Below, in pieces: positions 2,085 through 4,660 of a stretch of DNA of 7,075 nt. A program made the translations under genes and the position numbers. The DNA lies in assembly GCA_025936195.1 (NCBI GenBank), contig JAICTW010000127.1:1-7075 (forward strand), written 5' to 3'. The notes below the pieces were generated by a model. That model did no database searches. It saw nothing but the letters and a program-made list of their open reading frames with translations, and was not told the origin of the DNA. Source of the stretch: Flavisolibacter sp. (lineage in GTDB: Bacteria; Bacteroidota; Bacteroidia; Chitinophagales; Chitinophagaceae). Every line of letters starts with the position of its first letter. Position 1 is the stretch's first letter.

Positions 2085-2090
2085 TTGTTG

Positions 2091-3230
2091 ATGATTAAGA
2101 AGATCATTCTTTCTATTGAGCTTTTGCTGATCGGTTTGATTGCACTGGCTCAATACAAAGTGAGTTTTGTGATGGATAAACTGCCTTCTTATCAAAAAGC
2201 ATCTGATAAAATTTATCTTGTTGGAAATTTCAATAACTGGAATCCACACGATGAAAGATTTCTACTGAAAAATATCAATGGAAAGCCCGGCATTACAATT
2301 GAATTGCCGAAGGACACGTACGAATATAAATTCACAGAAGGAAGCTGGGAGAGAAGTGAATCGGGAAACGGCGGCTTCCCAACTGAAAACAGGAGATTAA
2401 ACTTGGAAAGCGATACTATCATAAATATCGAAATTGAAAACTGGGCGGATCATTTTCCCAAAAAAGAAAAACTTCACACCGCAAGTAAAAATGTGCACAT
2501 TATTGACGATTCCTTTTACATTCCCCAGTTAAATCGTTACAGGAGGGTTTGGATCTATTTGCCGGAGAGTTATAACACATCCAACAAAAAATATCCCGTG
2601 CTGTACATGCACGATGGGCAAAATGTTTTTGATGATGCCACTTCTGCTTACGGTGAATGGGGCGTGGATGAAGCATTGGATACGTTAGGTCCAAAGAATA
2701 AAGAGGTCGTTGTTGTGGCCATTGACAACGGTGGTGATAAGCGGGTAAATGAGTACTCGCCTTACGACATGGAAAAATATGGCAAAGGCGAAGGTGATCA
2801 GTATGTTGATTTTTTAGTGCAAACATTAAAGCCTTTCATTGACAAACATTATCGCACTAAGAAAGATGAAAAGAACACATTCATTGCAGGAAGCTCCATG
2901 GGCGGGCTGATCTCTTTCTATGCCATTTTAAAATACTCAAAAGTGTTTGGTGCCGCCGGTGTATTTTCTCCCGCATTCTGGATCACTCCCCAATTAAAAA
3001 ATATTGATCCGCACCAGGCAAAAAAGGTAAAGGGGAAAATTTATTTCTACGCCGGATTGCAGGAAAATGAAGCCATGGTGCCAGACATGCTGAATGTTTT
3101 TGAACAAATGCGCAAGTACTCAAAAGCAAAAATGAAAACAGTGATCAGGGCAGAAGGAAAACATAATGAGCCGACATGGAGAGAAGAATTTCCATTGTTT
3201 TATAAATGGTTGTTCCCCCTGTCCCCCTGA
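2091..3230 (+). CDS. Secreted alpha/beta-hydrolase esterase with N-terminal E-set domain
   Basis: This is a putative exported esterase of the esterase D / Fes-IroE type, 379 residues from the ATG at 2091. Two in-frame TTG codons (2085, 2088) lie upstream, but the ATG gives a good signal peptide: Lys3-Lys4, a hydrophobic core of about 6-19 and an ALA cleavage motif (18-20) before Gln21. Residues about 38-118 resemble the glycogen-binding/E-set fold (IYLVGNFNNWNP, then DTYEYKFTEG). The catalytic domain begins near 150 (RRVWIYLPESY, YPVLYMHDGQNVFDD). The nucleophile is Ser269 in GSSMGG (267-272), and His358 in GKHNEPTW is the likely catalytic His. The acid may be Glu325 or Glu327 in AGLQENE; this is unsure. 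The substrate cannot be told: relatives cut ferric enterobactin-like esters or acetyl and feruloyl esters. The gene starts 6 bp after dapA. Its last codons (the end of FPLSP) and its stop lie inside the left inverted repeat, so its native 3' end may have been replaced. Confidence 0.85.
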   Translation: MIKKIILSIELLLIGLIALAQYKVSFVMDKLPSYQKASDKIYLVGNFNNWNPHDERFLLKNINGKPGITIELPKDTYEYKFTEGSWERSESGNGGFPTENRRLNLESDTIINIEIENWADHFPKKEKLHTASKNVHIIDDSFYIPQLNRYRRVWIYLPESYNTSNKKYPVLYMHDGQNVFDDATSAYGEWGVDEALDTLGPKNKEVVVVAIDNGGDKRVNEYSPYDMEKYGKGEGDQYVDFLVQTLKPFIDKHYRTKKDEKNTFIAGSSMGGLISFYAILKYSKVFGAAGVFSPAFWITPQLKNIDPHQAKKVKGKIYFYAGLQENEAMVPDMLNVFEQMRKYSKAKMKTVIRAEGKHNEPTWREEFPLFYKWLFPLSP

Positions 3231-3243
3231 AGGGGAGACTTAG
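3214..3243 (+). repeat. Left 30-bp inverted repeat of the cassette
   Basis: The arm starts with a tandem octamer TCCCCCTG (3214-3221, 3222-3229) followed by AAGGGGAGACTTAG. Bases 3221-3239 form an imperfect palindrome (GTC-CCCC-TGAA-GGGG-A-GAC type) able to fold as a short GC-rich hairpin, as REP elements do. It is the exact reverse complement of 3728-3757; the match ends sharply on both sides. It contains the esterase stop TGA (3228-3230) and, on the other strand, a TAA (3240-3242) that ends the shifted frame of the endonuclease. There is no T-run after the hairpin, so a classical terminator is not supported, though it could slow or end transcription. Confidence 0.9.
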
Positions 3244-3319
3244 ACTTTAGTGTCTTTACTGATTGCACCTTTTCCTTTAAGGTAAGTTTCTATTTTGTAG
3301 ATCACTTCTTCTGATTTCA
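3240..3319 (-). pseudogene. Frameshifted C-terminal tail of the DUF559 endonuclease
   Basis: Downstream of the endonuclease stop (TGA at 3319-3317), the frame one base back reads without interruption from the CTG at 3320 to a TAA at 3242-3240. The translation includes SEEVIYKIETYLK, which fits the amphipathic C-terminal helix that usually follows the FTNEE motif in DUF559 proteins. Joining the two frames gives about 127 residues, a normal family length. A single-base loss in the A-run just before the stop (ATAAAC) would explain the shift. I see no canonical X XXY YYZ slippery heptamer, so programmed frameshifting is less likely than decay or a sequencing error. Confidence 0.65.
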
Positions 3320-3622
3320 GTTTATTTCTTCATTGGTGAATCGCAAAAAGCTGAGTCCTTCTCGCTCCAATTGCTTTTGCCTTATCTCATCATTCTGTTT
3401 TACTTGTTCTAACTTATGAATGGAACCATCTACTTCAATTGCAAGTTTTAGAGAATGGCAGTAGAAGTCGAGAATATAACAAGAGAATGGATGTTGTCTT
3501 CTAAACTTAAAACCAAGCGGCTTCGTTCTTAAGTAATTCCAAAGGATTTCTTCAGCAAAAGTCTGTTGCTTTCTAAGCTGAGAAGCTCTTTCAAACAAAA
3601 GTTTTTCTGCTCCTAAGAACAA
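3317..3622 (-). CDS. DUF559 / Vsr-like endonuclease, probably frameshifted
   Basis: This is a small protein of the DUF559 family, related to very-short-patch-repair (Vsr) and EDxHD homing endonucleases; its cell role is not established. It has 101 residues when counted from the TTG at 3622. Visible family motifs are FLGAEKLLFERASQLRK at the start, TFAEEILWNYLR with the acidic pair Glu24/Glu25, FKFRRQHPF (38-46), YILDFYCH with Asp52, and LAIEVDGSIH with Glu63, Asp65 and His69. These would form the single metal site of the PD-(D/E)xK-like Vsr fold, so the catalytic core is intact. Two oddities suggest decay. First, the expected MRRKLFLGA-type beginning reads IRRKLFLGA, with ATT at 3634-3632 instead of ATG, and an in-frame stop lies at 3652-3650. 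Second, translation stops early and the C-terminal helix continues in another frame. The gene runs in the direction of rnz and could be reached by read-through from it. Confidence 0.8.
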   Translation of the reverse strand: MFLGAEKLLFERASQLRKQQTFAEEILWNYLRTKPLGFKFRRQHPFSCYILDFYCHSLKLAIEVDGSIHKLEQVKQNDEIRQKQLEREGLSFLRFTNEEIN

Positions 3623-3727
3623 TTTTCTTCTAATCAGAATTAGCTTTCTCTAAAACTAATGATTGTTTCAATGGGAAGAAAAACATTGTGCTTTAAAGAA
3701 CCGTTGAGAAAGAAAAGTTTCTTCGAC
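3623..3727 (-). other. Upstream region of the endonuclease inside the cassette
   Basis: About 105 bp separate the endonuclease start from the right inverted repeat. The region is A/T-rich and holds a short open frame (ATGTTTTTCTTCCCATTG begins it on the minus strand) with no recognisable product. I find no clear TTTG / TAnnTTTG promoter and no hairpin of note. It may carry the endonuclease promoter, or leader sequence mutated after insertion. Confidence 0.35.
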
Positions 3728-3757
3728 CTAAGTCTCCCCTTCAGGGGGACAGGGGGA
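3728..3757 (-). repeat. Right 30-bp inverted repeat of the cassette
   Basis: This is the exact reverse complement of 3214-3243. Read on the minus strand it again begins with the tandem octamer TCCCCCTG. Its outer end is the base directly after the rnz stop codon (TAG, plus-strand CTA at 3758-3760). The palindrome GTCTCCCCTTCAGGGGGAC (3732-3750) can form a 7-bp stem with one T-G pair and a CTTCA loop. In an RNA crossing the whole cassette the two arms could pair over 30 bp around a 484-nt loop. Confidence 0.9.
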
Positions 3758-4660
3758 CTATATCTCATAAGTATTCCCCTCAATCGCCAATTCCGTATTC
3801 GGAAAAACTTCTCTCGCTTCCTGTTCAAACTGTTCAAGTGAATTATACTTGGAACTGAAATGTCCGATCAATAATTTTTTTACCATTGCCTTCTTTGCAA
3901 TCATTGCCGCCTGTTTTGTTGTGCAATGAAAACGTTCCAGCGCTTTTTCCTGCATGTTATCGAGATAGGTGCTTTCATGGTAGATCATGTCGGCGTCAAG
4001 AATGTAAGGGATCATGGTTTCATCATATCGTGTATCTGCACAAAAAGCATATTTTTTCCCTTTTTCTGGTGCAGTAGTTACTTCATCATTGCGTATGGTT
4101 TGTCCGCGGGGAGTAATATAATCCAAACCATTTTGGAGACTGGAGTAAAATGAAATCGGAATATTTAGCTTTCGCACTTTTTCGATAAGCAATTTTCTTT
4201 TGCCTTCTTTTTCTTCAAACAAAAATCCGTAACATTCAATACGGTGGGTGGTAGGGAAGCAGCTGATTTTTATTTTATCGTTGTCCACTAAAGTTTCCGC
4301 CCGGTTAAGCCTATGAAAATAGAGAGGATATGATAATTGGGTTTCTGCAACATTCATTTGCATTTCAATGATCTGCTGCAAAGGCGAAGGCGCATACACA
4401 TGTAATTCCTGCTTGTGATTAAGCAAACCAAATGAGTTCAGAAACCCCACCAACCCAAAATACTGGTCCCCATGCACATGAGAAATAAAAATGTGTGAGA
4501 TCTTTCCACGGCGGATCTTGTATTTGATCATTTGTATTTGCGTGCCTTCGCCGCAATCCACCAAATAATTGCTGCCATCATGCGACACTACCTGGCTGGT
4601 GGGATGGCGGTTAAAAGCAGGTACTGCAGAATTATTTCCCAGTATGGTTACCGATAACAT
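3758..4660 (-). CDS. rnz: Ribonuclease Z with a His-to-Gln change in the metal motif
   Basis: This is the tRNA 3'-processing endonuclease of the metallo-beta-lactamase fold, which cuts after the discriminator base of tRNA precursors lacking encoded CCA. The protein has 300 residues, a normal short-form (RNase Z-S) length. Blocks seen are LGNNSAVPAFNRHPTSQ (7-23), VDCGEGTQIQM (34-44), the metal motif FISHVHGDQYFGL (58-70), the exosite-like arm around 150-195 (EEKEGKR to TPRGQTIRN), TTHRIECYGF with His139, CADTRYDE with Asp209, YHESTY (227-232), FHCTTKQAA with His245, and IGHFSSKY with His267. Spacing matches B. subtilis RNase Z ligands His63, His65, Asp67, His68, His140, Asp211 and His269. The fourth member of HxHxDH is Gln66 (codon CAG) instead of His, which should weaken the second zinc site. 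The ATG at 4660 is well placed before the first beta strand. The gene lies 32 bp downstream of the kinase gene, probably in one operon, and ends at the cassette boundary. Confidence 0.94.
   Translation of the reverse strand: MLSVTILGNNSAVPAFNRHPTSQVVSHDGSNYLVDCGEGTQIQMIKYKIRRGKISHIFISHVHGDQYFGLVGFLNSFGLLNHKQELHVYAPSPLQQIIEMQMNVAETQLSYPLYFHRLNRAETLVDNDKIKISCFPTTHRIECYGFLFEEKEGKRKLLIEKVRKLNIPISFYSSLQNGLDYITPRGQTIRNDEVTTAPEKGKKYAFCADTRYDETMIPYILDADMIYHESTYLDNMQEKALERFHCTTKQAAMIAKKAMVKKLLIGHFSSKYNSLEQFEQEAREVFPNTELAIEGNTYEI

Follow-up and report, generated by a model that had tools for sequence, protein, structure and literature searches.

Why does a single endonuclease gene lie between two identical, inverted repeats at the point where two convergent genes meet, and could this enzyme be what moves the unit? 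In the window (the whole stretch of 7,075 nucleotides analysed here), the two arms of the unit are complementary at 30 of 30 positions and spaced 484 nt apart (Table 1); exact inverted repeats or palindromes in 200 Markov-shuffled copies of the window never exceed 22 nt, with a mean of 14.1. The open reading frame between the arms matches DUF559 (PF04480; Pfam, E 4.6e-28), confirming what the sequence-only reading had proposed, a single DUF559 gene within identical inverted repeats; the REP-like make-up that it assigned to them, a GC-rich palindrome plus a tandem octamer, is read directly in the core stem and the doubled TCCCCCTG. Its placement of the unit in the gap between two convergent genes is right in that esterase and rnz do converge on the unit, but the esterase gene ends inside the left arm. 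As a DNA strand, a single window arm forms an unexceptional hairpin (z -0.78). Elsewhere in the window, positions 1161-1202, between accA and dapA, hold a 21-nt tandem duplication, 90% identical.

Table 1. Features of the unit and of its neighbouring genes, in window coordinates.
Feature	Position	Strand	Remarks
Esterase gene (PF00756)	2085..3230	+	last codons and stop codon (3228-3230) come from the left arm
Left inverted arm	3214..3243	+	outer tail TCCCCCTG, palindromic core, inner end GACTTAG
Tandem octamer TCCCCCTG x2	3214..3229	+	outer tail and first half of left core
Left-arm palindromic core	3222..3236	.	stem TCCCC/GGGGA; read from the sequence
Former C-terminal part of nuclease gene	3240..3316	-	shifted frame; stop of that frame in inner end of left arm
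DUF559 nuclease ORF	3317..3622	-	101 aa, TTG start; C-terminus lost by apparent frameshift
Right inverted arm	3728..3757	-	30/30 complementary to left arm
Right-arm palindromic core	3735..3749	.	read from the sequence
rnz (ribonuclease Z)	3758..4660	-	stop codon (3758-3760) directly adjoins right arm

The nuclease copy and its locus

Two Pfam families, PF04480 and PF18741, are all that the window enzyme matches at E <= 0.001, and the Y1 transposase family (PF01797) is not found. Its nearest relative among the matches listed, P0122 (131 aa), is 91% identical; compared with it, the window gene starts with TTG and loses its frame near residue 100, with about 25 C-terminal residues out of frame as a result. 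The window copy thus looks damaged, although intact relatives exist, and the unit itself is probably inactive; the apparent loss of frame might also be a sequencing error. One source gives the names 'cyclase' or 'HisF' to many stand-alone DUF559 proteins related to that of the window, perhaps because a reference HisF bears such a unit.

DUF559 is found (tblastn) at none of 22 rnz loci of relatives, so the unit at the window locus is most likely an insertion; a layout common to all relatives at this locus, which the sequence-only reading had named as counting against it, is not what these loci hold. In six of them (L001, L002, L005, L008, L011 and L013) rnz and an esterase match are no more than 160 nt apart, with about 40 nt between them in L001; the other 16 are less informative, their neighbour being different or farther away. 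In L013 the same esterase-rnz gap contains, as read by eye, a similar inverted repeat pair without the nuclease.

Inverted repeats around DUF559 genes

The enclosure of a DUF559 gene by inverted repeats is a general layout. In a first set of 101 DUF559 loci including the window, both flanks are present in 98, and the inverted-flank score reaches at least 28 in 70 of these, compared to 4 of 2000 control windows with matching geometry from L001-L022. When arms are paired across different units this score is reached in 328 of 3000 cases; the arms thus have a common style, yet match best within their own unit. The pooled set comprises 132 loci, 131 of them evaluable, with strong inverted flanks at 92 (embedded 53/78, stand-alone 39/53) and no strong inverted pair at 39; repeats placed at random with respect to DUF559 genes, the other observation named beforehand as contrary, are not seen (92/131 against 4/2000). 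C-rich hairpins stand on both sides of 86 of 128 DUF559 loci, on one side of 28 and on neither side of 14, whereas among 2000 controls they occur on both sides in none and on one side in 39. Tail-core pairs are found at stand-alone and embedded units alike. All DUF559 loci are best-scoring matches, a choice that may favour embedded units: every locus returned is included except for the weak partial matches L027, L035 and L036, together with 60 further places from a list that was itself cut short; L154, which was reached via the repeat, is no independent case in the in-frame, tree and pooled flank counts.

The layout extends to a phylum-wide sample, with inverted flanks at 20 of 30 DUF559 loci, and beyond Bacteroidota to plasmids, where 6 of 10 loci (hand-picked from 40 listed of 43 records) score at least 28 (L248, L249, L251-L254), one scores 27 (L250), and L247, L255 and L256 remain below 28. 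In Sinorhizobium meliloti pSymB (L253) and a Pseudanabaena plasmid (L254), each DUF559 flank is about 90-115 nt long and contains two palindromes, an arrangement resembling REPINs. For E. coli ycjD the score is 20, with no paired inverted flanks and a single canonical-looking repeat on the 3' side.

Units in frame within host genes

An unexpected property of the family is that at 79 of the 132 loci the unit's open frame is also that of a longer gene. In 68 of these 79, at least 120 host residues lie on each side of the unit; the remainder are located at the end of a host frame (the start of ArgB, the end of a PurQ-type amidotransferase), at a contig edge, or unclearly (L033, L072). The hosts are LeuS (27), MetH (10), MetG and AroC (6 each), CinA and HsdR (5 each), ArgB (4), DNA methylase-type proteins and Lhr-type helicases (3 each), TDO, IcmF and adenine deaminase (2 each), and acetyl-CoA synthetase and the PurQ-type protein (1 each), two in-frame units (L033, L190) being without a named host; hosts were assigned by clustering and motif, and all 14 kinds are confirmed on at least one member by Pfam/NCBIfam. 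The arms are translated along with the rest, yielding, for example, TPSPSPKERG from the left arm and SPLERAGGE from the right. The window copy is intergenic and overlaps only the end of the esterase gene; residence in frame is a property of the element family.

A query with a LeuS-embedded DUF559 domain returns 666 protein matches, and tRNA-ligase domains are found too in the 120 matches listed, where they are favoured because the query was taken from a LeuS. In one genome (G015) the only LeuS gene found carries the insert, so the fused enzyme presumably works. An AlphaFold model of the whole LeuS-DUF559 fusion (pLDDT 60) is too poor for placing the insert. A plain intein reading is rejected: no intein or Hint family is detected in 39 DUF559-bearing proteins (Pfam, E 1e-8), and the host frame continues through the unit.

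Two HsdR frames (L037, L209), those of type I restriction R subunits, include, in frame and besides DUF559, a GIY-YIG nuclease domain (residues 265-331 and 251-317, respectively). At LeuS site 2, in L041, the left repeat has apparently been amplified in tandem and in frame (SPKERGADIPNASPKERG...) beside a DUF559 unit, and L046 (LeuS site 3) and L061, identical to L218 (LeuS site 4), have translated repeat-like peptides without nuclease.

Full, empty and nuclease-less sites

Orthologous sites occur in up to three states. At LeuS site 1 some loci are empty (48 nt, as in L223 and L228), one is occupied by a solo palindrome (90 nt, in L224), and others are full (L217, L219-L222, L225). The L224 solo palindrome folds well as a DNA strand (z -4.67) and reads as two joined half-arms of the L220 type, the left one from the left arm and the right one from the right arm. 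On a host tree of 41 hand-picked rows (42 loci tried; L061 and L218 are one gene), 22 are empty, 18 full and 1 solo, which takes a minimum of 11 state changes, and well-supported branches alone force 7 changes for 'full'; since 7 of 200 shuffles are as low, the state is only mildly clustered. Two insert types, only 37-44% identical to each other, occupy this same site in related hosts.

Other host genes vary in state too. The AroC proteins of two genomes are 93-95% identical, one gene being full (L257 of G223) and the other empty (L263 of G609). Of 21 TDO loci (L287-L307), 2 are full and 16 empty, 2 are unmatched by motif, and one (L290) has a short inverted pair from which the nuclease is absent; the TDO insert replaces about 15-20 host residues rather than being additional. 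No target-site duplication is seen by eye at the AroC, LeuS and TDO junctions, for which the nearest empty alleles have diverged. Mobility of the unit is well supported; the solo state may have come before or after the full one.

The nuclease family

The sequence-only reading took the enzyme for a relative of Vsr and of the EDxHD nucleases, and both profile and fold agree. A family profile compared with the PDB matches 3hrl (DUF559-type, E 6.7e-30), I-Bth0305I (3r3p, 1.5e-6) and PvuRts1I (0.005), and the predicted fold of P0122 (pLDDT 86.9) matches best 3hrl (E 9e-6) and I-Bth0305I (6e-4), with two Toxoplasma mitoribosomal proteins nearly as close (8e-4 to 1e-3) and Vsr only weakly (0.2). The EDxHD/Vsr fold and motif residues are thus present in relatives (alignment A2, P0122), and the E, Q, D, ExD, H and D positions are near-invariant in 79 embedded and 50 stand-alone DUF559 domains. 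Over 67 DUF559 pairs with dS 0.2-1.5, which overlap in their members, dN/dS has a median of 0.20 and a maximum of 0.36, the signature of a nuclease family under purifying selection; in part this could reflect the folding of the host protein. A tree of the DUF559 domains (108 columns, many open forks) groups them by host site, with 32 label changes against a shuffled mean of 76 and a least possible 18, and includes many switches between hosts; the pattern is in line with long-term copying within a site and occasional jumps.

Repeats, DUF559 and RAYT genes across genomes

Repeats were counted in the genomes of relatives (n=294), 156 of which have DUF559, with up to 9 matches per genome; in 129 of the 156 the match is strong (E below about 1e-10). 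The window-type repeat (24-mer, at most 2 mismatches) is found in 17 genomes, the reversed control giving 0 matches, and every one of the 17 also has a strong DUF559 match, compared to 129/294 overall (p 4e-7, uncorrected for kinship). Most of the fetched copies nevertheless lie away from a nuclease: among 30 window-type repeat loci only L154 is a full unit whose nuclease frame is open, and one more (L130) has a weak DUF559 match near its inverted pair. Such pairs, 130-241 nt apart, are present at 5 of the 30 loci, and allowing up to 4 mismatches reveals no inverted partner at 24.

The canonical tail-core repeat is present in 82 of the 294 genomes, 81 of them usable (G089, with CT-rich microsatellite matches and equal control counts, was dropped from the repeat side). 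Strong DUF559 matches are found in 63 of these 81 genomes, being absent from 18, and in 66 of the 213 others (odds ratio 7.8, p 6e-13, uncorrected for kinship). RAYT-family genes, which exceed the cut-off in 217 of the 294 genomes and are counted in 221 for this comparison, are also enriched, at 72/81 against 149/213 (odds ratio 3.4, p 8e-4, likewise uncorrected); with DUF559 held fixed this link weakens (p 0.15 and 0.06), and in genomes without a RAYT match strong DUF559 still accompanies the repeat (7/9 repeat-bearing genomes against 14/64 others). The RAYT genes have paired repeats of their own: of 30 loci, 21 were retained after the weaker ones were dropped, 4 of the 21 lie too near a contig end, and 12 of the 17 evaluated score at least 28, with tails that look by eye unlike those of DUF559. 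The RAYT genes of L156-L173 have, for example, CCGTAGG cores and TTGGTAG tails, compared to the C-run tails of DUF559, although the palindromes of L169 and L172 have C/G-rich cores too.

Mechanism and alternative explanations

These observations lead us to favour, though with some reserve, a reading of the unit as a REP-like palindromic mobile element with a partner nuclease of the Vsr/EDxHD fold, of which the window holds a broken copy. A wider claim has about even chances: that DUF559 proteins are the driving enzymes of widespread palindromic selfish elements, which insert by homing at their own palindromes and are maintained in frame within essential genes without splicing, the solo palindromes being both their footprints and their targets. 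The order of parts would be outer tail, C/G-rich palindromic core, DUF559 gene, core and outer tail. The nuclease would cut the palindrome or the empty allele of its site, and repair of the break from a unit-bearing copy, via the homology of core and tail, would copy the unit in; spread by cutting and break repair is probable, and we infer that the nuclease drives it. As the core is palindromic, the arms share it in direct orientation as well, so that the nuclease would be lost, and a solo palindrome left behind, if the two cores recombined or slipped against each other. A nuclease residing in frame in an essential gene would be expressed with its host gene and protected against frameshift and stop mutations.

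If instead another enzyme, a RAYT or an IS200/605-type transposase, moves the repeats, DUF559 would be a hitch-hiker between two of them. The abundance of RAYT genes in the same genomes and their correlation with the repeat (72/81 against 149/213), the lack of DUF559 at the majority of the window-type repeat loci (30 fetched) and the C/G-rich cores of L169 and L172 all agree with this. RAYT as the mover is nevertheless disfavoured and overall improbable, since the paired repeats at 12 of 17 RAYT loci have tails different by eye, the link of repeat and DUF559 persists without RAYT and that of RAYT weakens at fixed DUF559, and arms match far more often within one unit than across units (70/98 against 328/3000). 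About equally doubtful is a reading of the units as ordinary homing endonuclease genes confined to fixed sites, with the palindromes as mere linkers or terminators. The grouping of DUF559 sequences by host gene and site is what site-specific homing should produce; against it stand the solo palindromes and nuclease-less short pairs, at the same sites and elsewhere, the tail-core pairs at both stand-alone and embedded units, and the two distant insert types that related hosts have at a single LeuS site.

The least probable of these alternatives, and one that we consider most unlikely, sees in DUF559 a resident Vsr-like repair enzyme, for mismatches or cruciforms for example, with the repeats as its regulatory or terminator elements. 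It can call on VsrA, a DUF559 protein of Caulobacter that the consulted part of PMC12907096 ties to DNA damage in cells without a cytosine methylase, and on the unpaired flanks of ycjD; it is at odds with the patchy presence of DUF559 (156/294 genomes, up to 9 matches in one), with its occurrence in frame within unrelated genes and with the presence and absence of units at orthologous sites. The partner-nuclease reading stands as the preferred one, and the occurrence of nuclease units with mirrored repeats in many other bacteria, often in frame within housekeeping genes, suggests a little-noticed type of mobile DNA. A literature search for DUF559 together with 'inverted repeat', which left most subscription papers and separate preprints outside its reach, returned no paper.

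If this is true, the DUF559 proteins, a very large family still without a functional name, would gain a function, and odd annotations, such as leucine--tRNA ligases with DUF559, would be explained.

Comparison with known systems

Of the systems to which the unit can be compared, VsrA of Caulobacter shares the DUF559 domain family; it is studied as a chromosomal repair-type enzyme, and the part of that study drawn on here does not mention flanking repeats (PMC12907096). The EDxHD homing endonuclease I-Bth0305I is related to DUF559 in fold and sequence, but is the protein of a mobile intron by its PDB name, with extended DNA-binding regions as described in an excerpt of PMC3943268; in the DUF559 units no splicing domain is seen, and the host frame continues across them.

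The Rickettsia palindromic elements resemble the units in being palindromes that lie in frame in unrelated protein genes and are translated, as stated in the available part of PMC10969869. By their description they differ in being about 150 bp long and in that no nuclease partner is named in that part of the source; the full and nuclease-less DUF559 forms share sites. The units, if rightly understood, would offer a testable explanation for the entry of palindromes into protein genes, a puzzle posed by the Rickettsia elements.

Closest in layout is the REPIN/RAYT system, in which, as far as the cited portion of PMC3116915 goes, an enzyme gene lies beside inverted REP-like palindromes, and solo or inverted-pair copies occur elsewhere (here, in relatives). 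The description of the unit as RAYT-like in the sequence-only reading therefore stands for the layout, with its inverted REP-like palindromes and enzyme-less copies elsewhere, and falls for the enzyme, which has no Y1 match, and for the repeats, those of RAYT looking different; neither of the REP tag tetramers, GTAG and CGTC, is found in the window arms. The RAYT enzyme is a Y1 HUH transposase (same portion of PMC3116915), whereas the enzyme here is a nuclease of the Vsr/EDxHD fold; the RAYT genes of the same genomes have other repeats, as judged by eye, and DUF559 units, unlike REPIN/RAYT, often share their frame with coding genes. The DUF559 units would thus add to the REP world a partner that is not a transposase.
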